64,000 nucleotides of DNA from Halomonas elongata DSM 2581 (GTDB lineage Bacteria > Pseudomonadota > Gammaproteobacteria > Pseudomonadales > Halomonadaceae): assembly GCF_000196875.2 (NCBI RefSeq), contig NC_014532.2, positions 3,038,001-3,102,000 of the forward strand. Reading direction: 5' to 3'. The position numbers and the translations under genes were made by a program. Below the pieces are notes generated by a model. That model did no database searches. It was not told the DNA's origin and was given only the letters and a program-made list of their open reading frames with translations. Shown here in pieces: positions 10,996 through 51,545 of the stretch (the first letter of the stretch is position 1; each line of letters starts with the position of its first letter).

Positions 10996-13238
<2,243 letters not shown>

Positions 13239-13241
13239 AAG

Positions 13242-15167
13242 TCACCTAAAAGCCTTTCCCGAAAACCAAAACTTCGCCTTTCGGTACACATACAAAGACC
13301 TAAAATAAAACTTACTCAAGACCATTCTCCCACGGCTACCGTGAGGAAAAGCTTTATTAAAAAACGGTTTCAAAAAACTGCGAAACCTTTCTTCTTTGCT
13401 CAAAGATTTTTTTGGAACTTCATGCACAACTTTTTTATCATGCAGCTTTCCGGTAACAAGGGTGCTGACACGCTCTTCATACCAAGGCGTCCCTCGTAGT
13501 GCATTCCAATACATATCAGAAAAGTCTACGCTTGGATTATTCCAAGGTTTCTGGTCGCCAGCATAATGAACCATGGAAGGGTTCTTGCGCGCTTCCAGGA
13601 ACTCGGAAAATGTAGAAAAATTCAGCCCTGGAAAGAAATCAAAAGTATTACCATTTCCATGAAAAACATTCCAACTCAGCGGTAGATACCTGACTCTTCC
13701 TTCGAAAACCTTGTTCATGATATCTTGATCAAGAAACCAATAAGGCTTTAACCTCAGCGCCTCCATAAGATGATCAAAAGTACCTTCCTCTCTCATCTTA
13801 TCGAGATTAAACATGATCAACCCTGCCTGAAAGTACCCCACCCCATCTTTCAGTCCAAGATAGTCTGTCAAATAGTCCCTGGCTTCCAGAGCCCCTGTAT
13901 GATGATCTGAAATCGCCTTAAACTTGACGAAGCCTTCCATCACGATATCTTTTACCGCAGCAACAAGATTGTCTTCGAGATCGACATCAAACAGGTTCGC
14001 AATATCATCATTGACTACAGTATCCGCATCAATGAATAGAACCTTTTCTTGCTCTTTAAAGACTTGAGGTATAAAAAGCCTAGCATATGTGGCAGGACTA
14101 AAATGCGCTCTGGTATGAACGTCTTTTATTTCATCAAAAGCGTTTATATTAAAAAATCTTATATTGAAATTATCGCAACCATCAAACAGGCTCTTCAATC
14201 TCGCTTTATTTCTGTTCGATACCCCATTCTCCAGAACAAGGATATCGTAATTCTTATCGGGATTAGCGTTATTCTTTATCGAATTAAGGAGCGCGCCGCC
14301 GGAGTGCGAGTAATTATCATCAAAACATATAACAACCGGGTGATTATTTTCACCATACCAAGGGACAACCCCACCATTGAACCCTTCCTTAGATAGAAAA
14401 GTTCTACCGACTTCTTTTATATTTAACCCTTCATTCCGCTTCTTCGTGAAATAAATCCCAAGCAGTCGTTCTGAAATATGGCCAAAAACACGACTCTGCT
14501 GTTGGTTATAGCCTTGCAAGGAGAGCTTATCCTCCAGCTCATCCAGGATATCAAACAGCCACCGAGAGTAGTCGTCAAAAATGTCGCGTTTCATCACGAA
14601 CATATTTGTATAATAACCCAACGGACTACCATTGTACTCTTTTACTGCATCATAAAAATCCGGATGCTGTTTAAGCAGGGCATTCACAGCTTCCTGATAA
14701 TCACTTATAAATAAATCAGGCGAATTCCCATAATGCTCATAGTTGTTTTTACTTCCTGCATTTCTCACATCCCACTTTTCAGGAAGAATGACATCACAAT
14801 TACCAAGCTTTTCAAGCACGGCATCTCTATTTAATCCATGCTTGGCTTGGTAAGCCTCATCCAGTTCCTCTTCTACAATGACACCCCACTGATCTCTCCT
14901 GAAACCATCGGGTTCAGAAAAGCTCAAATGCCTTCGGTAATGCATCAAGCCAACATAATCAGAGGTAAGATCATTCTTCCATATCCAATACTGAGCTGTC
15001 AGCTCGCAATAATACGGGTTTTTCAGGGAAATATTACAGCCAGTGTCATCCCCTCTGCAGCCAATATCGTTGTAGCTATTTGCCTTTCCAACGTGGATAG
15101 GGCAAAAAACACTATCAGCAAGAAAAGCACTTTCTTTATGGTGGCATGTATAAATACTAATTTCCAT
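13242..15167 (-). CDS. Two-domain glycosyltransferase: DUF4422 plus GT8, AT-rich gene
   Basis: 641 residues. The N-terminal part (about 1-240) is DUF4422-like: DDTGCNISLKNPYYCELT, YWIWKNDLTSDYVGLMHYRR and a PYY/Wxx pattern typical of that family, often found in polysaccharide loci. The second part (about 265-560) is glycosyltransferase family 8: HPVVICFDDNYSHSGGALL, then KVLFIDADTVVNDDI with the D-x-D motif, and YFQAGLIMFNLDKMREEG. The C-terminus is basic. The ATG at 15167 is preceded in frame by a GTG. The gene is AT-rich like its downstream neighbour, which suggests joint transfer. It probably adds two sugars, or one domain serves binding. Confidence 0.83.
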   Translation of the reverse strand: MEISIYTCHHKESAFLADSVFCPIHVGKANSYNDIGCRGDDTGCNISLKNPYYCELTAQYWIWKNDLTSDYVGLMHYRRHLSFSEPDGFRRDQWGVIVEEELDEAYQAKHGLNRDAVLEKLGNCDVILPEKWDVRNAGSKNNYEHYGNSPDLFISDYQEAVNALLKQHPDFYDAVKEYNGSPLGYYTNMFVMKRDIFDDYSRWLFDILDELEDKLSLQGYNQQQSRVFGHISERLLGIYFTKKRNEGLNIKEVGRTFLSKEGFNGGVVPWYGENNHPVVICFDDNYSHSGGALLNSIKNNANPDKNYDILVLENGVSNRNKARLKSLFDGCDNFNIRFFNINAFDEIKDVHTRAHFSPATYARLFIPQVFKEQEKVLFIDADTVVNDDIANLFDVDLEDNLVAAVKDIVMEGFVKFKAISDHHTGALEARDYLTDYLGLKDGVGYFQAGLIMFNLDKMREEGTFDHLMEALRLKPYWFLDQDIMNKVFEGRVRYLPLSWNVFHGNGNTFDFFPGLNFSTFSEFLEARKNPSMVHYAGDQKPWNNPSVDFSDMYWNALRGTPWYEERVSTLVTGKLHDKKVVHEVPKKSLSKEERFRSFLKPFFNKAFPHGSRGRMVLSKFYFRSLYVYRKAKFWFSGKAFR

Positions 15168-25557: not shown

Positions 25558-25632
25558 GAGTCTCTCCCTGTTCAGATATCAACGCTCAAGCCCACAAGGT
25601 CCCTCTCATGGCGCTTCGCGCGTAACTCGTGG

Positions 25633-25690
25633 CCCGTAGCCCGTAGCCCGTAGCCCGTAGCCCGTAGCCCGTAGCCCGTAGCCCGTAGCC
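25633..25690. repeat. Tandem 7-bp repeat, eight copies of CCCGTAG
   Basis: Eight perfect copies of CCCGTAG (25633-25688) followed by CC. It ends just past the stop codon of the selenoprotein-W-like gene and lies upstream of the DMT permease start by about 75 bases. It is a variable-number type repeat; its unit is not a multiple of three, but it lies outside the coding sequences, so it could only alter spacing or transcription. Confidence 0.9.
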
Positions 25691-38389: not shown

Positions 38390-39460
38390 TCATAGCTGGA
38401 AGGGCATACGGAAGGTCAGGCTGATGTCGGACGCGTCATCGGTCAGACCGATGCCCAGGTTGGTCACGATGGAAGTCGAGTCGTTCAAAGCATAGGTACC
38501 GCCGATATTGAAGACACCGACATTGGCATCACTGTCGATGACCTTGCTGGTACTGCCATTGGAAGTGATCTCAGATTTGCGAATATGCTCGTGGGAGTAG
38601 GAAAGCGCCAGGCTGAGTCGCTCATTGAGCGCGAAGGCCGTACCGAAACCGACCTGGATACTGTCGCCCAGGTCAACATCGCCGGGTTGATCGCCCGAGG
38701 ATGCCGAAATATCGTCGAAGGATTCCTCGAAATTGTAGGTATATCCCAGACTACCGAAGACGATGGCCGGATCCAGCGTCTTGAGTAGCGATACACTGGT
38801 TGTCGCCGCCCAGACGCCATTACCGGTAGGCAGCTCGGTCGGCACTATCAGATTCGTGTTGTCGTCCTCGCGCAGACCGATGCCGTAAGGATCCTTGCCG
38901 GTCGGCGCACGAACCCCCGCACTGATCACGACATCGGGACGTGTCGGGGTTTCCGGCAGCAATCGATAGGATAATGTCGCCGAAATATCGCCCAATGCCG
39001 CTTCATCGACATTCACTTCGCTTTCCCGCTCCGTGGAAAGATCATCGCCGATGGACTGATAGGTCGTGCTGCGATACACGAAAGGTATCGTCACCCCCAA
39101 CTCCAGGCGGTTGGAGAAGCCATAGCGCATGTTGAGATCGAAGGTGGTGATATGCGTTTCCACCCCGTCCAGGTTCAATTCTCCCAAAAAGATCGCATCC
39201 AGGGCGAGAAAGCCCCTCAGCGCCAGTTTGGAACGATCGGAATAGGAGTAATTGATGCTCGGCTCGATGGAGAACCGATTATCGAACAGGGTATGCTCCT
39301 CGCGCAGCACGTCTTCAACGCTCTTGCTGGGTCGCGCCTCGCGAACGACCCCACCGTCACCTTCTTGTGCCACGGCCGGTGTGGCCGAGAGCCCCGCAAT
39401 GCCGATGGCGACCAGGCTCCATTTCACCCTTGCTTCCTGGGCTGACATATTATTATTCAC
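38390..39460 (-). CDS. Outer-membrane beta-barrel protein in the FapF position
   Basis: 356 residues. I chose a GTG at 39460 because AAGGAGG precedes it by six bases; a longer ATG start lacks a ribosome site. Signal peptide with cleavage after ATPAVA (about residue 31), a short helical part (SVEDVLREEHTLFDNRF), then alternating beta strands ending in phenylalanine/leucine (LTFRMPFQL), the mark of outer-membrane barrels. Phrases such as NRLELGVTIPFVYRST and the GVRAPTGKDPYG-like turn resemble the porin-like Phenol_MetA_deg family. In Pseudomonas fapF, last gene of fapABCDEF, encodes the barrel that secretes amyloid subunits; the equal position suggests the same role here. Confidence 0.7.
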   Translation of the reverse strand: MNNNMSAQEARVKWSLVAIGIAGLSATPAVAQEGDGGVVREARPSKSVEDVLREEHTLFDNRFSIEPSINYSYSDRSKLALRGFLALDAIFLGELNLDGVETHITTFDLNMRYGFSNRLELGVTIPFVYRSTTYQSIGDDLSTERESEVNVDEAALGDISATLSYRLLPETPTRPDVVISAGVRAPTGKDPYGIGLREDDNTNLIVPTELPTGNGVWAATTSVSLLKTLDPAIVFGSLGYTYNFEESFDDISASSGDQPGDVDLGDSIQVGFGTAFALNERLSLALSYSHEHIRKSEITSNGSTSKVIDSDANVGVFNIGGTYALNDSTSIVTNLGIGLTDDASDISLTFRMPFQL

Positions 39461-39594
39461 GATCACCCTCCTTCCCCTCGGAATATGATCCCAGGCATAC
39501 CATTCGAGCACCCCGCCGGATGTCGGGGCATGCCTTCCTGAATCAGCCTAGTAGTCCCTGGAAAATTAGTTCGCCCACCTCTTTTACGGTGTCT

Positions 39595-40392
39595 TCAACG
39601 ACGCAATTGCGAAGCCATCCTCATGGCACTTCTGATCCCCATCGATCGCTCTATCGTCGGCCGATTGTTCATGTAGAGTTGCAGGCGAGTCAGGTTATGC
39701 ACCCGCTGCAGGCTGCTGGACAGCTGGATACGCTGATGCAGCCCCTGCCCCGGCAGGATTGCCTGTGATACATGGCCGATTCCAGGCACCTTCATGTCGA
39801 CACTGAAGTCGTTGCCCGACGCACTGACCGCGACGCGTGTCCCCGAGGTCAAGTGCCGCTCGACGCGAGAAACGCCTGCCGACCCCGTCGGCACGGAAGT
39901 GCCGGCGGCATCCAGGATATCGACCTGCAACTCGTTGGCCGCCGTGTTGAAATCCCCCCCGGCCTGGATCGACTGCACGACCCCTCTGGCATTGGGCGTC
40001 CCGCCATCGACCACGACGGCGCCATTGCCCACCGAAGCCGCCAGGCCGGGCCCGTCGACCACCGAAATGACGGGCTCGAACGAGACACGTGGCGTGCCGC
40101 CACTGAGATCGCCCATCACCCCCGCCCTGGCCCGGATATGCTCACCGGCGGCCGTTCGCCATTCACTCGACATCTGCACCCCGAAGTACATGAGCCGCCC
40201 TCGATCCACGAAGCGCCCTCGCATGATGCTCAGTTCATCATCACTGAGCTGCCGGGCCTCGGAGAACGGCTCGAAGCTCGAGGTAGCCGCCTGGGCCGAA
40301 GGTATGCCCGCTTGCGACATCGCCAACAGCAGCGGCGTGGAGAAAGCTAAAATACGCCAGGTATTCGTGCCCCTTTTATATTTGCCGATCAT
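39595..40392 (-). CDS. FapE-like secreted protein of the amyloid operon
   Basis: 265 residues. Sec signal peptide (hydrophobic about 12-28, cleavage near PSAQA-A, residue 35). Directly after, LSDDELSIMRGRF (residues 49-61) and VDRGRLMYFGVQMSSEW (62-78). The rest is beta-rich with many glycines, and a C-terminal part QRIQLSSSLQRVHNLTRL. Position between the C39 peptidase and barrel genes matches fapE, a minor component of Pseudomonas Fap fibres. The first motif resembles double-glycine-type leader motifs (see findings). Function inferred from context only. Confidence 0.6.
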   Translation of the reverse strand: MIGKYKRGTNTWRILAFSTPLLLAMSQAGIPSAQAATSSFEPFSEARQLSDDELSIMRGRFVDRGRLMYFGVQMSSEWRTAAGEHIRARAGVMGDLSGGTPRVSFEPVISVVDGPGLAASVGNGAVVVDGGTPNARGVVQSIQAGGDFNTAANELQVDILDAAGTSVPTGSAGVSRVERHLTSGTRVAVSASGNDFSVDMKVPGIGHVSQAILPGQGLHQRIQLSSSLQRVHNLTRLQLYMNNRPTIERSMGIRSAMRMASQLRR

Positions 40393-40437: not shown

Positions 40438-41166
40438 TCAGAACAGCTCGGCGTGCCGAAAACCGAAATCGATCAGTTGGTCTCGCGGTGCTGGAGAGAA
40501 GACGTCCTGCAGACGATGCGCGGTCAATGGCTGACGCGGATCGAGCAGGACCGTATAACGGTCATAACCTTCCCCCACCACGGCAAAGATGATGTTGTTC
40601 CACGCAGTCATGAAGTCGTCGCGCGACATCACGCGATTGCCCAGCGCCGGATCACCGACGTAGACGCGATCCCCCCGAGCCTTCTTCATCACCACGAAAT
40701 GCTTGTAGCCTTCCAGATCGAGCAGCACGATCACCGGAATCGATATTTCATCCAGCGTATCGGGATCGACCTCATAGCCACGTCCTCGGTATCCGTTCGT
40801 TTCCACATAGCGCTTCAGGTCAAGCAAAGAAAAGCCGCGCTGACGCACGACTTCGGGATCGGATACTTCGAGCATGCCCGCCAGGACATCATTCTCGGTG
40901 ATTTCCGCACGGCCATAGGCATACTTGAGTACCGTGGCCAGGGCCGCGGCCCCACAGGAAAAATCGGTATGCTGTTCGACCAGGTCCTCGTAACGCCTCT
41001 CGCGTATGGATTGGACGTCCTTGCGTACCATGGTGTCGGACAGGACATTGCCCAGGCTCATGCTGGCTGCCAACGCCATATCGGCAGATGCCACGCTGAT
41101 ACAGATGCCCGTCACCATCGCCGTGAATAGCCGCAAACGCTTGAAACTCATGCGCTTGAAATTCAT
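40438..41166 (-). CDS. fapD: C39-family cysteine peptidase, FapD-like
   Basis: 242 residues. I took the ATG at 41166, with GGGAG ten bases before. A signal peptide or anchor at about 10-34 (cleavage near ALAA) places it in the periplasm. The C39 site is complete: Gln65 and Cys71 in VEQHTDFSCGAAALATVLKY, His156 in GYKHFVVMKKARG and Asp172 in VYVGDPALGNRVMS. In Pseudomonas FapD is needed for Fap export, and it lacks the ABC transporter parts of bacteriocin C39 proteins, as here. It stands third in the BCDEF order. Confidence 0.88.
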   Translation of the reverse strand: MNFKRMSFKRLRLFTAMVTGICISVASADMALAASMSLGNVLSDTMVRKDVQSIRERRYEDLVEQHTDFSCGAAALATVLKYAYGRAEITENDVLAGMLEVSDPEVVRQRGFSLLDLKRYVETNGYRGRGYEVDPDTLDEISIPVIVLLDLEGYKHFVVMKKARGDRVYVGDPALGNRVMSRDDFMTAWNNIIFAVVGEGYDRYTVLLDPRQPLTAHRLQDVFSPAPRDQLIDFGFRHAELF

Positions 41167-41230
41167 GGTGCGCTCCCGGTACCCCATCGCCGGAGACACG
41201 CTGGCAGCGTCGCCCGACGAAGAATAGAGT

Positions 41231-41257
41231 CTCCCGACCCGCATCGCGGGTCGGGAG
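41231..41257 (-). other. Strong hairpin between the FapC-like and FapD-like genes
   Basis: A perfect 12-bp stem (CTCCCGACCCGC and complement) with a three-base loop, in the 140-base gap between the two genes. It is not followed by T residues on the minus strand (ACTCTATTC), so it is more likely an mRNA processing or stabilising element, or a partial terminator, than a full stop. It could raise the amount of FapC over downstream products. Confidence 0.7.
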
Positions 41258-41306
41258 TGTTGACCTGTCATCACATCTCGCTGGAGGTCATGCAGCGACG
41301 AGCGAA

Positions 41307-42515
41307 TTATTCGCTGCCGCCACCAGCCCCGCCACCTGCGGCGGACGATGCAATGGACAGGGAGTTGCGCTGCAGGTTGTTGGTACCGGCGGCGACGTTG
41401 ACGCCGATGTTGCCGACCGCACCACGCAGGGCGTTGCCGCCCAGCTCGGCGTTGTTCTCGTTGGCCACGTACACGGTATTGGTCGCCGTGACGCTACCGG
41501 AGAGCGTGCCGCCCATGGCCATCAGGCCCGCTTCGCGGAAGCCCAGCCGGCCACGATATTGCCCTTCTGTGGTGCCGTCCTCGTTGAAGGCAAAGGCCCC
41601 GCCATCACCATTGAGGTCCTGGGCAAATTGTGCATCGGAGTCAACGTCGATGTGGCCGGTAGAAGTCCCTCCGGTATGCGTTGCACCACTCCAGGTATCC
41701 AGATAGACATCACCAATCTGGTCGGACTGGCCGGTATACGTGCCATTGTAAGTACCGGACTCACGACCGCGACCGACACCGGCATAGCCGCCCACCATCA
41801 CACCGGACACCGTAACGTCAGTGGTGTTGGTGAAGGTCTCGGTATGGCCACTATTGGCGGTGTGGTTGCCATAAGTGGTCTGTACTCCACCGGTCGTGGC
41901 ATCAGCCGAGCCGCTGGAGGTATTGACCGCAGCCGCCAGGCTGTTCTGCTGGCCATTGCCGACACCGGCGGCAACGTTCACCCCAATGTTGCCGCTGGCG
42001 CCAAGCAGAGCGTTGCCACCCATGCGAGCGTTGTTCGGGCTGCCACTGTTGATGGTCACGTTGTTCGAGCTGGACTGAGCCGAGAAGGCAGCAGCCTGAC
42101 CGAACACACGAGCCGCATCCGAAGCGGCAAGTGCCGCATCATTGGCTTGCTGGTTGTTGTCGCCCGCCGCCACGTTGACGCCGATATTACCGGCGGCATT
42201 GCGCAAGGCATTGCCATCCAGGTCGGCGTTGTTGGTGGAGACGGTATTATCGACACCGTTGCCATTGATCAGCTGCTTGCTGTCCACGGTGGCACCGGCA
42301 TAGTTGGGATCACTGGTCCGCACCCTGACATCGACCTTGAAGTCCTTGTAGGTATCGCTGTCATGGTTGAGTTCGACATCGATGTTGTTATCGAACTTGG
42401 AATCGATCTCGCTATCGGTATCGAAGTCATTGCCCGAGTTCCAGGCAAATGCCGCGGGAGCAGCCATCAGTGCGGCGACAGCCAGAGCGAGCGGAGCTTT
42501 TTGGAATGTTTTCAT
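41307..42515 (-). CDS. fapC: FapC-like functional amyloid subunit
   Basis: 402 residues. A signal peptide (1-24, APAAFA cleavage) then an acidic, Asp-rich segment. Three imperfect repeats share NxAxxxGNALxxAxGNIGVNVAAGxxNxQxN at about residues 95-125, 161-191 and 354-384; GNIGVNVAAG is identical in all three. Linkers are about 35 and 160 residues, the second rich in G, T, S and N. This is the build of Pseudomonas FapC, whose repeats form the cross-beta core. Unlike Pseudomonas FapC it contains no cysteine, so no C-terminal CxxC. AGGAGAAGG precedes the ATG at 42515. Confidence 0.85.
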   Translation of the reverse strand: MKTFQKAPLALAVAALMAAPAAFAWNSGNDFDTDSEIDSKFDNNIDVELNHDSDTYKDFKVDVRVRTSDPNYAGATVDSKQLINGNGVDNTVSTNNADLDGNALRNAAGNIGVNVAAGDNNQQANDAALAASDAARVFGQAAAFSAQSSSNNVTINSGSPNNARMGGNALLGASGNIGVNVAAGVGNGQQNSLAAAVNTSSGSADATTGGVQTTYGNHTANSGHTETFTNTTDVTVSGVMVGGYAGVGRGRESGTYNGTYTGQSDQIGDVYLDTWSGATHTGGTSTGHIDVDSDAQFAQDLNGDGGAFAFNEDGTTEGQYRGRLGFREAGLMAMGGTLSGSVTATNTVYVANENNAELGGNALRGAVGNIGVNVAAGTNNLQRNSLSIASSAAGGGAGGGSE

Positions 42516-42568
42516 GGTCCTTCTCCTGAATGAGCCGTTGTAATGCATTTTTTGCTTCTTGATTTACG

Positions 42569-43234
42569 CTACTGCCCCAGCGCCATGTTCATGCGGAAGC
42601 TGTTGCGCGTAGCGTTTCCCTTACCGGCTGACTGGTTGACCTGAATCACCCCGCGAGCACCGCCGAAGGTCGTGTTGTCTATCTCGACCCTGCGACTGGC
42701 GTCCTCGGCGGAATCATCACCGCCACCGTTCAGCCCCTGCTGACTCGCCAGCACCTGTTGCAGGTTCCTGTCATCCAGGCTGCTGACGTTGATGCCCAGA
42801 GCCATGCCGAATGCATTGCTCTGCACATTTCCTTGACCCGCCGCCTGATTGATCGACATCCAGCCGCTCGCCTGACGGAAGGCCTTGTCCTGTATCTGCA
42901 CGTCGTTCTGCAGGCTGATCAGGCTCTCGTCGATACGCGCCTGCTGAACCAGTTGACCGGACGTGCTGGACGCTCTCCCGATGGATAGAGCGCCGCTGTT
43001 GGCTTGCCGGTTACCTTCCCCGGCCGCCATGTTGGTATTCGCCACGCCACTGACATGGCTCAGGGCACCGCCCTGGAGAACCGTGCTGTTGCGTAGCCCG
43101 ATGTCCTGGGCATCGGCCGTATCGAAACCGGCCATCATCAGCCCCAGGCAAGTGGCGAAGAGCGTGTGCCGCACGAGAGCTCGCGCTTCGAGACGCCCGG
43201 CCATCGGTTGAGGTGTCGCGATGAGTCGCAGCAT
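42569..43234 (-). CDS. fapB: FapB-like repeat protein
   Basis: 221 residues. Signal peptide with cleavage near TADA-Q (about residue 42). Three looser repeats at about 49-80, 110-140 and 186-211 share the ending hNxxAGxGNxxxN (ANTNMAAGEGNRQAN, SINQAAGQGNVQSN, QVNQSAGKGNATRN). FapB is a nucleator for FapC in Pseudomonas and has similar repeats. It follows the preceding gene by two bases and is 54 bases before fapC. The identification rests on the repeat pattern and order. Confidence 0.75.
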   Translation of the reverse strand: MLRLIATPQPMAGRLEARALVRHTLFATCLGLMMAGFDTADAQDIGLRNSTVLQGGALSHVSGVANTNMAAGEGNRQANSGALSIGRASSTSGQLVQQARIDESLISLQNDVQIQDKAFRQASGWMSINQAAGQGNVQSNAFGMALGINVSSLDDRNLQQVLASQQGLNGGGDDSAEDASRRVEIDNTTFGGARGVIQVNQSAGKGNATRNSFRMNMALGQ

Positions 43235-43236
43235 GA

Positions 43237-43779
43237 TCAGCGCTCCCCCGTGAGAGGCGACAATGCGCCTTTGACGGTATCGGCCAGCCCCGAAGTGATA
43301 CCGACCACGCCACCACCTACCGAGCCGCCGCCAAGGCTACCCGCAGCCTGCCCGGACCTGGCGGCGCTCGAGTACCCCGACGCATCGGTCCCAAGCCCCC
43401 GATGCAACTGGGGCATTCCCAGGCTCTTGCCACTGCTGATCCCCGCCGCCCGCGCATCGGTCAAGGCCACGGCCCTGACACCGGAAAGCTGGCGCTGCGT
43501 CTCCTGCGTTACCGTTTCATTGAGCTCGGTATTGCGACGCAGATCCGCCCGGGCCCTGATCGGCCCGCCGACACGGTCCGACTGGCCAAAGGCCGCCGGC
43601 TCGACCTCGCGCAGGATGATCACCTCGCCAGGCCTGACCCCGGGGCGAAGATTCTGCTGCCCCAGGGCCTCCTCGACTCCCGGGCCCACCAGCATTGCTG
43701 CGACCATGCCGACTGCCCCCAGCACGATTCGCCCCCTCACGACACGGACGGTGCTGCTTGTCATCCCCTGCGTTGTCAT
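43237..43779 (-). CDS. Secreted protein in the FapA position
   Basis: 180 residues from the ATG at 43779 (AGGTG six bases before). A hydrophobic signal segment is at about 17-37. The mature part has PGVRPGEVIILREVEPAAFG, a polar helical middle (RADLRRNTELNETVTQETQR), and a glycine/serine-rich tail (SGQAAGSLGGGSVGGGVVG). FapA of Pseudomonas is a small chaperone-like protein encoded first in the operon. Here the gene stands just before the FapB-like gene, so the same role is possible but not shown by sequence. Confidence 0.55.
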   Translation of the reverse strand: MTTQGMTSSTVRVVRGRIVLGAVGMVAAMLVGPGVEEALGQQNLRPGVRPGEVIILREVEPAAFGQSDRVGGPIRARADLRRNTELNETVTQETQRQLSGVRAVALTDARAAGISSGKSLGMPQLHRGLGTDASGYSSAARSGQAAGSLGGGSVGGGVVGITSGLADTVKGALSPLTGER

Positions 43780-43791
43780 GTCGTTCACCTG

Positions 43792-44139
43792 TTATTTATT
43801 GTCTCGTTGACTCATGGTGTGGTTACGCTGCAGGTTGCCAGCGCCTTCCATCAGTTGTGCTTGCCCGCCACGATCGACGCCCCCCGCATCGTGTCCGGGA
43901 CGTTCATCCCAGAGGATGACCTGCCCCGCGCGCCGCACCTGCCATTCCGGCGTATAGCGCCCCTGGATCCCGTCGAGAGCTTCGTTCGTCAGCGCCACCT
44001 GGTGCACGGACGCCGACTGCTCGAACACCTCGGGTATTTCCGGACCACGCTGTTCGGCCGCGACGCTCGATGCCATGCCCAGTCCCGCGAGGACGGCATA
44101 CCGCCATAGCCAGCACGTCTTGCGAACTCGATGAGTCAT
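43792..44139 (-). CDS. Small secreted protein opening the amyloid-like operon
   Basis: 115 residues from the ATG at 44139 (GAGGA site). Signal peptide with cleavage near SSVAA (about residue 28). It then contains ALTNEALDGIQGRY (49-62), which aligns with LSDDELSIMRGRF of the FapE-like protein, and near the C-terminus MEGAGNLQRNHTM (97-109), which recalls the repeat ending AAGTNNLQRNSLSI of the FapC-like subunit. It is the first gene after the sigma-54 promoter. No family is recognised. It could be a minor fibre subunit, a cap, or a target of the C39 peptidase. Confidence 0.65.
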   Translation of the reverse strand: MTHRVRKTCWLWRYAVLAGLGMASSVAAEQRGPEIPEVFEQSASVHQVALTNEALDGIQGRYTPEWQVRRAGQVILWDERPGHDAGGVDRGGQAQLMEGAGNLQRNHTMSQRDNK

Positions 44140-44189
44140 GGTGGTGTCCTCGCATCTGCCAGGGTCCAGCATCGTGTCTCCTTGTATGG

Positions 44190-44205
44190 AGCAAGGAGTG
44201 TGCCA
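44190..44205 (-). promoter_or_regulatory. Sigma-54 promoter of the amyloid-like operon
   Basis: On the minus strand TGGCACACTCCTTGCT (44205-44190) against the consensus TGGCACG-N4-TTGCW: the GG and GC dinucleotides have the exact spacing and only one of the other conserved bases differs. Transcription would start near 44179, giving a 40-base leader before the ATG at 44139. A sigma-54 activator gene is the next gene upstream. Confidence 0.88.
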
Positions 44206-44255
44206 AACATGATTTCCCTTTATTTACAGACGGTTAGACAAAACGTGCGGAGAGA

Positions 44256-44368
44256 AAGTGTTAACCCCATGAAACATTCCAGGCTCGAGGCGTCGCCCCG
44301 AACCGGGGGAGTCTTATCAATGCCTTGTTGAATCAACGCATTACGATAAGTGTTAGGGGATTGAAACA
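44256..44368. promoter_or_regulatory. Pair of 21-bp direct repeats, candidate activator (UAS) sites
   Basis: AAGTGTTA-N6-TGAAACA occurs at 44256-44276 and again at 44348-44368, starts 92 bases apart, about 51 and 143 bases upstream of the sigma-54 element. Each copy is a partial dyad (TGTT...AACA). Enhancer-binding proteins normally bind paired sites at such distances. Apart from these and the hairpin at 44407, nothing else was seen in this 310-base gap. Confidence 0.6.
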
Positions 44369-44406
44369 ACGGCGGGTACGAGACAGGGGAAAAGGACACA
44401 ACGCAC

Positions 44407-44434
44407 GACGCCCGCCGAGAAAATGGCGGGCGTC
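44407..44434 (-). terminator. Hairpin after the sigma-54 activator gene
   Basis: A perfect 10-bp stem, GACGCCCGCC paired with GGCGGGCGTC, loop of eight. It lies 50 bases past the activator's stop and would insulate the operon promoter from read-through. The T-rich part (CCTTTTCCCC) is some 14 bases downstream, so termination may be incomplete. Confidence 0.6.
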
Positions 44435-44482
44435 AGACATGATGGGGAATGGAGGATTTGAGCGGCGAATGCTCGATACAAA

Positions 44483-45907
44483 CTACAGGTGTGCCGAGGA
44501 GGTTGATCTCCCAAGCCCACTTGCCGACTCCCCCGGTGAGCGGGGAATGCCATGCTTGTTGAGCAATCGATACATCGTGACGCGCGACACACCGAGTTCG
44601 GCAGCGGCAGGATGAATTCGATACTTGTTGCGCGCCAGGGCTGCCAGCAGGGAATCGCGCTCGGCACGCTCCCGCGCTTGCTCCAGCGTCAGCACATGAC
44701 GATGGATACGGCGACGCTCGATGCCCAGGTCCTCGGGCTGAATCAGCCGACCTTCGCACATCACCATCGCGCGCCTCACCCGGTTGATCAGTTCACGGAC
44801 ATTGCCCGGCCAGGCATATTGCTGCATCACAGCGAGCGATTCTCGGGAGAAGCCCTTCAGGCATGCCGGCTTGTCGCCGGCAAAGCGCTTGAAGAAGAAG
44901 TGGGCCAGAATCTCGATATCTTCGGGATGCTCCCGCAATGCAGGCACCGTGATCTGCAGGACATTGAGTCGGTGGTAGAGATCTTCACGAAAGCGCCCTT
45001 CGTCGACGGCCTTGGCGAGATCGACATGGGTGGCGGCAAGAACCCGCACATCCACGCTGATCTCGTTCAGTCCACCGACGCGTTGCAAGCGTCGCGTCTC
45101 GAGAAAGCGCAGCAGGTTGACCTGGAGCTCCAGAGGCAGATCCCCGATCTCGTCGAGAAACAGCGTGCCTCCACTCGCGGCCTCGATACGCCCGATCTTG
45201 CGCTGCCCGGCTCCTGTGAAGGCTCCCTTCTCGTGGCCGAACAGCTCGGATTGAATCAGATTATCGGGCAAGGCGCCGCAGTTGATCGCATGGAAGGGCC
45301 CGTTTGCCCTGGGAGAACGTTCGTGAATCGCCTGGGCGGTCAGTTCCTTGCCGGTACCCGACTCGCCATGAATGCAGACGGAAGCATCCACTGCTGCAAT
45401 CTTGCGAATCGTCTTGAACAACTGCCACATGGCCGGCGTGGTGCCGACCATCTCATACTCGCCCGAATCCGCACCCGCCTCGGTCGCAGCCTGCTTCTGA
45501 GACTCGCTCTCCCGTCGTTGCAGGCGCATCAGGTCGGCCGCTGTCCATAACAACCCCTCGATCCGGTCGGCATCCACGGGCTGCATCGCATAGCCCAGGC
45601 AAAGATTGATGATCAGCCGACGCGTATCGCCATCGGCCAGTCCCGACTCGTCCACCAGGCCGATCCATGGGCAACGGCTCTTGATCATCGAGGCCTCGAG
45701 TCGCCGCAGCTCATCGGACGACAGGGCATCGAGCATCATGAGCCCCACCTCGTTCTCCGTGACATGTTCATGGCAGCAACAGACGCCGGATGACTCGAAA
45801 ATAGTGTCGTTATGTACCTGCCAACCGCGTTGTCGCAACGTATCGCCAAGTGACGCGTCCCGGTCACTATCCCTGCAGAACAGCCTCACACTTGCTGGAG
45901 ACTCCAT
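44483..45907 (-). CDS. Sigma-54-dependent transcriptional activator
   Basis: 474 residues. The N-terminal part (about 1-125) has the strand pattern of a receiver-like domain ([33 protein letters not shown]) and resembles VpsR-type activators. The AAA+ domain spans about 150-390: Walker A GESGTGKE (181-188), the sigma-54 contact loop GAFTGA (228-233), Walker [11 protein letters not shown] Fis-type helix-turn-helix ends the protein ([20 protein letters not shown]). There is no sensor kinase gene beside it. Location suggests it drives the adjacent amyloid-like operon in response to a small molecule or phosphorylation. Confidence 0.93.
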
Positions 45908-46006
45908 CGATCACCCCTCCCCGCGAGCCGGGTGAATCATGAGGCACGCCCACTCGCTGTCGGATATGCCTCGTAGAGCGTCAGGAATGCACTGCGCCAA
46001 GGCCAT

Positions 46007-46026
46007 TGTGTGAAATTCGTCACACA
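46007..46026. promoter_or_regulatory. CRP/Vfr-type binding site upstream of the sigma-54 activator
   Basis: TGTGTGAAATTCGTCACACA is a perfect palindrome of seven-base arms around six bases and contains the exact CRP core TGTGA-N6-TCACA. It is centred about 110 bases before the activator's ATG. The gene on the other side ends here, so only the activator can be the target. The rest of this 340-base gap (45908-46247) shows no gene. Confidence 0.7.
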
Positions 46027-46247
46027 GCGACGCGAGAAACCCGCTGTACAGGTCCTGACTTATTGTTATTTATCGTTTGCCCGCCTTGTGGCTCATCGTC
46101 TCGCCCATCACGACGCACAGCGATTCACCACATACTGTCGCGGCCAAGTGGCATGTCACTGGTTTTCTAGACCACTTGGAGCGCACTCGCCACCCATGCA
46201 GAGCAAACTCATTTTCATACTAGCCCTTGTACAGCACCCATCATTGT

Positions 46248-47381
46248 TTAAATTTTAAACGGCAGTGCCCGCGCGGCCGCGTCATGGTAAGCCGACACGT
46301 GAGCGCTTTCCTCGTCGCAGAAGCGCGCCACGCCATCGCGCAGGCGAGGATCCGCGATATGGTGGAGCGATGTCAGTCGGCGCGGCGCGAACCCTCTGGT
46401 CAGCTTGTGTTCGCCCTGGGTACCGGGATCAAACAGGGTCAGGCCCGTTGCCAGACAATGCTCGATGCCCTGGTAATAACACGCCTCGAAATGCAATCCA
46501 TCGGCCATCACTTCGCTGCCCCAGTAGCGACCGTAGAGGGTCCGGGTCCCCTGCAGACACAACGCCGCCGCCACCGGGCGCCCCGCCAGGCGGGCCTGGA
46601 CCAGCAACAAGGATTCGGGCAGGTCGCGGCGCAGCCGCTCGAAGAAACTCTCATCGAGATAGCCACGCTGCCCACGTTCCAGGTAGGTGAGCTGATAGCA
46701 GCGAAAGAAGTGCGCAAGATCCTCGTCACCGATCTCGTCGCCCTGGAGACGGTGCAGACTCAGCCCTTGTTCGGCGATGCGTCGGCGTTCCCGCCGAATG
46801 GCCTTGCGGCGCTTGGAGGTCAGGCTCGCCAGGAAGCCCTCGAAGTCGCCGAACCCGCGATCTTGCCACTGAAACTGGACACCATGGCGGGGAATCAACT
46901 CGGGACACGCCTGTCGCCAGGCATCGACCTCGGCCTGCTCGGCGAACAGCAAATGCCAGCTCGAGACATCCTCCGACTCCCAGGCCTCGGCCAGCAAGCG
47001 ACGCGCCTGCAGCGGGTCGATGTCCTCGGCCAGCAGCAGTCGAGGCCCCGGCGCCGGGGTGAAGGGAATGGCGCTGAGCGCCTTGGGATAGTAACGTCCC
47101 CCGGCACGCTCCCAGGCATCGGCCCAGGCCCAATCGAAGACATATTCGCCGAAGGAGTGATACTTGAGATAATGCGGCAGGACACCGACCAGCTCGTCTC
47201 CCTGCCACAGGGTCAGGTGACGCGGAACCCAGCCGGTATCGGCGCTCACGGCCCCGCTATCCTCCAGGGCGGACAGAAACTCGTGGCGCAGGAACGGGTA
47301 GTCATCACCGACCAGGGCATTCCAGGACGCCGGTGGTATCGCCCCGATGGGTGACGGCGTTCCAAGGCGTAATCGAGTCAT
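46248..47381 (-). CDS. GNAT-like acyltransferase (COG3146/DUF482)
   Basis: 377 residues from the ATG at 47381 (GGAG site). The protein has the FemAB/GNAT-like arrangement of two acyltransferase halves typical of COG3146, with YPFLRHEFLSALEDSGAV near the start, VGVLPHYLKYHSFGEYVFDW, and FEACYYQGIEHCLATGLTLF with FDPGTQGEHKLTRGF in the second half. Members are widespread in proteobacteria but the substrate is unknown. It stands alone between the activator gene and edd, which is divergent. Confidence 0.85.
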   Translation of the reverse strand: MTRLRLGTPSPIGAIPPASWNALVGDDYPFLRHEFLSALEDSGAVSADTGWVPRHLTLWQGDELVGVLPHYLKYHSFGEYVFDWAWADAWERAGGRYYPKALSAIPFTPAPGPRLLLAEDIDPLQARRLLAEAWESEDVSSWHLLFAEQAEVDAWRQACPELIPRHGVQFQWQDRGFGDFEGFLASLTSKRRKAIRRERRRIAEQGLSLHRLQGDEIGDEDLAHFFRCYQLTYLERGQRGYLDESFFERLRRDLPESLLLVQARLAGRPVAAALCLQGTRTLYGRYWGSEVMADGLHFEACYYQGIEHCLATGLTLFDPGTQGEHKLTRGFAPRRLTSLHHIADPRLRDGVARFCDEESAHVSAYHDAAARALPFKI

Positions 47382-50546: not shown

Positions 50547-51545
50547 ATGATTCCCGAAACACTGCGCGCCCTGCTGGATGCCACCCAGGGCCAACGCCGC
50601 GCCGAATGGGCCGGGCGCGAAGTCTGGCTGGCCAACGAAGCCTGGGGCGAACTCGCCGTGTCGCTCCAGGGCGCCCAAGTTCTGCACTATCTACCAGCGC
50701 CCGAAGCCGCGCAAGCTGAAGGCTCTTTACCAGCGCCCGAGGCCGCGCAAGCTGAAGGCTCTGTACCAGCACCCGAAGCTGCGGCAAGCGAAGACGCACA
50801 ACCGACCGAAACGCCGGAAGGCATGGTGGCCGGTGGTTGGTTGTGGGTGACGCCCACGCCCCAGGAACTGCCCGGCGCGATCCGCGGCGGCATCCCGCTG
50901 TGCTGGCCCTGGTTTGCCGACGAACGTACCGCCGACGAATCCCCCGACCGCTCGGGTCCCATGCACGGCCCGGCGCGCACGGCCGACTGGCGCCTCGATG
51001 CCGTGGACGAGCACGAGGAAGGCGTGGAGCTGCATCTCAGCCCGCTCGAGCGCCTGCACACCCAGCTCGTGCCCCGCGCGGTGATCCAGGCCAACGCCCA
51101 GCGCCTGCACGTCGAACTGATCACCGAGCATACCGGGGAGACCCCGGTGAAGATCACCGGCGCCCTGCACAGCTATCTCGCGGTGGCCGATGCCTTCGCC
51201 TGCCGCGTCGAAGGCCTGACGGGCGCCCGCTATCTCGACAAGCTCAAGGACTTCGCCGAGAGCGAACAGCAAGGCGAACTCGGCGTGCGCAGCGGCATCG
51301 ATCGCATCTATCACAGCAACGAAGAAAGCGTGCTCGACGATGGCCACCGACGCCTGCGCATCGCCCGCCAGGGCAGCGACTCGGTGGTGGTGTGGAATCC
51401 CGGCGATGCGCCGCCCGACGACACCTCGCTGGCCGCCGCGCGGCGTTTCCTGTGCGTCGAATCGGCCAACACCCGGCTCGACCCGGTGTGGCTGGTGCCC
51501 GGCGCCCAGCACCTGCTGGGCACGACGCTGTCGCGGGCGATCTGA
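50547..51545 (+). CDS. D-hexose-6-phosphate mutarotase (YeaD family) with a repeat insertion
   Basis: 332 residues, against about 290 usual. Aldose 1-epimerase fold: GGIPLCWPWFADER, SGPMHGPARTADW with the catalytic histidine, HSYLAVADAF, and a C-terminal VWNPGDAPPDD. Residues about 49-85 are an insertion of 12-residue repeats (LPAPEAAQAEGS twice, then a diverged third copy), encoded by a 36-bp tandem repeat and missing from typical relatives. A strong ribosome site (GAGGAGG) precedes the ATG. It equilibrates glucose 6-phosphate anomers for Zwf. Confidence 0.9.
   Translation: MIPETLRALLDATQGQRRAEWAGREVWLANEAWGELAVSLQGAQVLHYLPAPEAAQAEGSLPAPEAAQAEGSVPAPEAAASEDAQPTETPEGMVAGGWLWVTPTPQELPGAIRGGIPLCWPWFADERTADESPDRSGPMHGPARTADWRLDAVDEHEEGVELHLSPLERLHTQLVPRAVIQANAQRLHVELITEHTGETPVKITGALHSYLAVADAFACRVEGLTGARYLDKLKDFAESEQQGELGVRSGIDRIYHSNEESVLDDGHRRLRIARQGSDSVVVWNPGDAPPDDTSLAAARRFLCVESANTRLDPVWLVPGAQHLLGTTLSRAI
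50691..50796 (+). repeat. In-frame 36-bp tandem repeat inside the mutarotase gene
   Basis: Copy 1 is 50691-50726, copy 2 is 50727-50762 (two base differences), and a diverged third copy continues to about 50796. The unit encodes LPAPEAAQAEGS. Being a multiple of three, copy-number change would alter length but not frame. Confidence 0.9.

Follow-up and report, generated by a model that had tools for sequence, protein, structure and literature searches.

In the window analysed here, a 64,000-nucleotide stretch of the Halomonas elongata genome, two copies of an imperfect 18-bp dyad lie in the gap between an activator gene and an ORF1-fapA-F operon, both on the minus strand. We hold with high confidence that the BrfA-like, VpsR-type sigma-54 activator encoded at 44483-45907 uses both boxes as upstream activating sequences for the ORF1-fapABCDEF promoter. 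Since the same pair occurs at the same places before this operon in related bacteria, the boxes are very probably docking sites of the activator. They would provide a concrete operator and a spacing rule for the control of Fap amyloid in two bacterial families. The features of the locus are as follows.

44483..45907, minus strand: VpsR-type sigma-54 enhancer-binding protein of 474 aa, putative box binder (BrfA-like); Pfam VpsR, Sigma54_activat and HTH_8
44407..44434, no strand: perfect 10-bp inverted repeat 3' of the activator gene, a possible transcript end without a T run
44351..44368, minus strand: distal box TGTTTCAATCCCCTAACA (operon sense), dyad centred some 155 bp upstream of the -24 GG
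44259..44276, minus strand: proximal box TGTTTCATGGGGTTAACA (operon sense), dyad centred some 63 bp upstream of the -24 GG
44190..44205, minus strand: sigma-54 -24/-12 element TGGCACACTCCTTGCT, consensus match; transcription start predicted near 44179
43792..44139, minus strand: ORF1, which opens the operon and encodes a small protein with a signal-peptide-like start; further in-frame ATG at 44172
43237..43788, minus strand: FapA-like (NCBIfam chaperone_FapA, E 1.2e-4, below cut-off)
42569..43234, minus strand: FapB-like amyloid subunit (E 3.6e-27)
41307..42548, minus strand: FapC-like amyloid subunit (E 1.9e-55)
40438..41274, minus strand: FapD C39 peptidase (E 2e-82)
39595..40392, minus strand: FapE (E 3.2e-34)
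38390..39511, minus strand: FapF outer-membrane channel (E 3.3e-112)

The six NCBIfam fap models match fapA-F in order, each below its curated cut-off and FapA most weakly. A family scan of ORF1 gave no match; tblastn recovered this gene in 14 of the 22 genus loci with a tandem activator and in Bisbaumannia. Given the transcript start predicted from the sequence, translation of ORF1 likely begins at the ATG at 44139. No canonical terminator was found near the end of the activator gene, and an Rfam scan of 43700-46300 returned no match.

The first-pass annotation had described a repeat, AAGTGTTA-N6-TGAAACA, occurring twice upstream of a sigma-54 element. Both copies are present, at 44256-44276 and 44348-44368, with no mismatch over the 15 specified bases, and the element that they precede, at 44205-44190, matches the consensus well. 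The window holds no further match with up to 3 mismatches (chance expectation 0.24). The genome scan that had been proposed returned only these two copies at 0-2 mismatches in 4.06 Mb; at 3 mismatches there are 8 other matches, against 15 for the reversed-pattern control. The pairing of the repeats is thus real, but an 18-bp frame fits better than the 21-bp one: what is conserved is the dyad at 44259-44276 and 44351-44368, which reads TGTTTCA-N4-(G/C)TTAACA in the operon sense, with TGT and ACA at its ends. The start-to-start distance of 92 bp is correct, but its description as close to nine helical turns was loose, as it amounts to 8.76 turns at 10.5 bp per turn. Searched genome-wide with up to 1 mismatch, the 18-bp form TGTTTCA-N5-YTAACA finds both copies and one AT-rich site (L229), while the control gives 1. 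This third match was rejected as an extra target, because it lies inside an ORF and the count is at control level. The predicted regulon in this genome is essentially one operon.

Shuffled 64-kb windows (n=20) yielded 0-3 gapped repeat pairs each (8 bp + gap + 7 bp, within 200 bp; mean 0.5), so that the pair on its own is suggestive and its conservation is the convincing part. Such a yield is what a functionless chance repeat would lead one to expect, but sequence and position are conserved across two bacterial families; chance is in practice already refuted as an explanation, and we give it next to no weight.

The conservation before homologous operons was examined at all 28 FapD loci detected at E≤1e-60, which come from 27 of 90 genus genomes. 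To these were added H. halmophila, one fap locus that lacks FapD (G016a) and, from other genera, four loci, giving 34 promoters. One genome (G002), in which no -24/-12 scored 10 or more, was set aside, leaving 33 promoters, 32 of fap and 1 of curli. The search matrix was built from 37 Pseudomonas-type sites only, and a box was counted if it was among the top three matches. In 32/33 Halomonadaceae promoters a proximal box lies 60-66 or 72-76 bp from the -24 (shuffles: mean 3.82, maximum 10), and in 28/33 a distal box lies 150-157 or 162-169 bp from it (mean 4.75, maximum 12). Both boxes occur together in 27/33, compared with a mean of 0.36 and a maximum of 2 in 300 shuffles; because the promoters share descent, these counts are not independent. 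The proximal box is weak in G028, G065a, G016b and G214. The promoter set aside in G002 (L050) has a good proximal box and an -24 in which GG reads AG, before a fap operon that otherwise looks intact.

Observed positions are 61-65 or 74-75 bp from the -24 for the proximal box and 151-156 or 163-168 bp for the distal box. The spacing between box and promoter is therefore either constant or moved by about one helical turn. In G025, whose activator is 96% identical, 11 extra bases separate the proximal box from the promoter and the rest is kept, both boxes included. Loss of the repeats in close relatives had been named as the sign against a function; the four nearest relatives (activator 72-96% identical) retain them, and they persist across the Halomonadaceae and in Pseudomonas. 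When the Halomonadaceae promoters are aligned on the proximal box (n=32; G055 left out because its promoter is identical to that of G043), base 2 (G) and base 17 (C) are invariant. Mean information per column is 1.04 bits inside the box and 0.12 in the flanks, in an alignment that, being centred on the box, is biased towards it.

The activator gene stands upstream of fap in tandem in 22 genus loci. Eight Halomonadaceae loci carry fap and boxes without a tandem activator: 7 of them have a convergent one at the far end; the eighth, G026, lies at the end of a contig, and its activator gene is on another contig. Since boxes are kept at loci without a tandem activator, they follow the fap promoter and not the activator gene. 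Two further arrangements were observed. One genome (G065; L048 2739-12221) has two consecutive fap operons, both of which have a -24/-12 element and a box of their own. In another (G094; L174 10768-11420), both boxes and the -24/-12 are kept with a FapF fragment alone downstream, likely a relic of fap deletion.

The same class of box precedes fap in Pseudomonas. We examined 44 of 67 Pseudomonas-type FapD places, the assignment to Pseudomonas being inferred from FapD above the cut-off. Two loci (L205 and L222), in which no -24/-12 scored 9 or more, were left out, giving a set of 42 promoters. TGT-N12-ACA is found 70-76 bp from the -24 in 37/42 of them (shuffles: mean 0.07, maximum 1), with additional boxes at 131-161 and 226-235 bp. 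L222 does carry dyads; L205 has neither box nor promoter element. A homolog of the window activator is convergent downstream of fap in 38/44 loci, and none was found within the stretch examined in the other 6/44. The Pseudomonas-type box is more symmetric, TGTNTCA-N4-TGANACA.

In P. fluorescens PF07, brfA adjoins fapA-F downstream in reverse orientation, and deletion of brfA or rpoN is reported to lower fap expression (PMC9207406). The fapA -24/-12 promoter was mapped by 5'-RACE (PMC9207406, PMC13101488), and BrfA is said to regulate fapA directly and to sense c-di-GMP (PMC13101488). The H. elongata locus resembles this system in having a sigma-54 enhancer-binding protein that adjoins fap, a -24/-12 promoter and upstream TGT-N12-ACA boxes, the latter as observed here in Pseudomonas-type genomes. 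It differs in that the activator gene is upstream and in tandem, not downstream and convergent, and in that the boxes are asymmetric (TGTTTCA...TTAACA), the proximal one being centred about 63 and not about 73 bp from the -24. A description of the box in Pseudomonas may already exist; a literature search by title and abstract found none of the boxes in Halomonas or of the Fap/curli replacement presented below.

The earlier proposals that an enhancer-binding protein uses the repeats and that the neighbouring activator is this protein both gained support. The -24/-12 lies downstream, the dyads are roughly 80-200 bp upstream of the start, and these positions are fixed in relatives. Support for the neighbour as the putative binder is strong. 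This VpsR-type enhancer-binding protein carries a GAFTGA motif as well as a Fis-type HTH, its VpsR N-terminal domain (PF20161) scores above the gathering threshold (E 1.1e-8), and boxes of the same class precede fap in Pseudomonas, where BrfA is the reported direct activator. The protein is about 44% identical to its Pseudomonas homologs. In a quick tree with a midpoint root, the Pseudomonas proteins form their own clade, and the fap- and fil-linked Halomonadaceae proteins cluster together. By its predicted domains, linkage and operator the window activator is BrfA-like; in the tree it does not come out as a simple ortholog of BrfA.

We also considered that another regulator, either a different enhancer-binding protein or a factor of another kind, binds the boxes while the neighbouring activator works elsewhere. 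A search of the genome with the activator protein gives 13 matches at E≤1e-50, one of which is the activator itself, and TGT-N12-ACA dyad geometry is known from other Fis-type HTH activators, e.g. TyrR. As the recognition-helix motif SRVTxYRL is common to the Halomonadaceae paralogs, another paralog, where present, could bind the boxes. Against this, activator, boxes and promoter remain together even after fap loss, and the boxes accompany fap in two families in which a VpsR-type activator flanks the operon. In addition, fap of Pseudomonas, which is preceded by the same class of box, has BrfA as its reported direct activator (PMC9207406, PMC13101488). A different binder thus appears unlikely, and the boxes are best read as the target of the neighbouring activator.

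In the mechanism that we propose, the activator would sit on both dyads, about 63 and 155 bp ahead of the -24/-12, as dimers of its C-terminal Fis-type HTH. With IHF presumably bending the DNA close to the boxes, the AAA+ ring would then assemble. The ring would loop to the sigma-54 RNA polymerase at 44205-44190 and open the ORF1-fapABCDEF promoter. The trigger is probably c-di-GMP, by analogy with BrfA. Candidate sites for IHF were called with WATCAANNNNTTR, which we take to be its consensus:

44331..44343, plus strand: IHF-like site AATCAACGCATTA between both boxes, exact consensus match
44315..44327, plus strand: second IHF-like site TATCAATGCCTTG, exact elsewhere in G025 and G022 only

When up to 1 mismatch is allowed, 16/33 Halomonadaceae promoters have an IHF-like site 131-136 bp from the -24, the place of the window site at 44331-44343 (shuffle mean 0.09), and 21/33 have one 12-15 bp from it; in Pseudomonas-type promoters one lies 26-28 bp from the -24 in 30/42 (shuffle averages <0.1 in both cases).

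A distal and a proximal site could also support a repression loop, and the boxes would then be operators of a repressor or silencer that blocks the sigma-54 promoter. Neither box, however, lies over the -24, their centres being about 63 and 155 bp further upstream, and a sigma-54 promoter needs an upstream activator. Moreover, fap expression falls when brfA is lost (PMC9207406). We regard repression as highly improbable and retain activation as the function of the boxes.

Fap is not always what follows this set of activator, boxes and promoter. In Halomonas halmophila (G032), the activator (72% identical), both boxes, the -24/-12 and ORF1 are kept and fap is absent. A curli cluster, csgD-E-F-G-B-A, occupies the place of fapA-F (L068 8938-13736). 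The genes after ORF1 match the CsgD, E, F, G and B families; the CsgA-like ORF (12990-13736) is named by its repeats alone. Beyond curli stand FtsB-, IspD-, IspF- and TruD-like ORFs, named by eye, as in the window, where such ORFs follow fapF. The gap between ORF1 and csgD yielded no sigma-70-like promoter or terminator, but its approximately 185 bp leave room for one. Two curli loci with a tandem activator (L184 and L185) have no such box or promoter, so that H. halmophila is a single case. On balance we favour, with modest confidence, the idea of a portable matrix-amyloid switch, made up of activator, paired boxes, sigma-54 promoter and ORF1 and driving Fap in most halomonads having it and a complete curli cluster in H. 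halmophila. If so, one amyloid machine was swapped for an unrelated one at the same locus and under the same regulator. The replacement would constitute a natural experiment on which of the two, regulators or matrix cargo, is better conserved in biofilm programmes.

Two other systems invite comparison. BerB of Burkholderia cenocepacia, which involves sigma-54 and c-di-GMP, is similar in being a VpsR-like enhancer-binding protein of a biofilm matrix gene with mapped upstream sites, and differs in its reported targets, berA and an exopolysaccharide (PMC5552954). The window activator is about 48% identical to a B. cenocepacia homolog, which we do not equate with BerB. The published berA -24/-12 was not found in the locus searched (L226). 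VpsR of Vibrio cholerae shares the N-terminal domain family PF20161, and solved VpsR chains match by sequence. Unlike the window activator, with its sigma-54 promoter and GAFTGA motif, VpsR is reported to act without RpoN (PMC5552954). A search of PMC6890996 for the published VpsR binding consensus did not find it.

The specificity of the boxes as against paralogs was examined at 15 loci where a VpsR-type gene stands beside a Fil-like cluster. None had a box together with a promoter upstream of the filC match (0 of 15), a weak negative, since the real promoters of those loci may lie elsewhere. One Fil-like locus (L181) has a lone dyad. Matrix islands with more than one VpsR-type activator each were seen at L231, L232, L064, L076 and L077, and one with a single activator at L235. 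All six also hold CsgD-like regulators and a Fil-like cluster (FilC/FilB relatives), often with fap or curli alongside.

Two other repeats were observed in the window. At 25628-25690 the 7-bp unit CGTAGCC occurs nine times head to tail in near-perfect form, a possible slippage site, and a 36-bp in-frame tandem repeat of 2.8 copies lies at 50692-50793, inside the ORF at 50547-51545.
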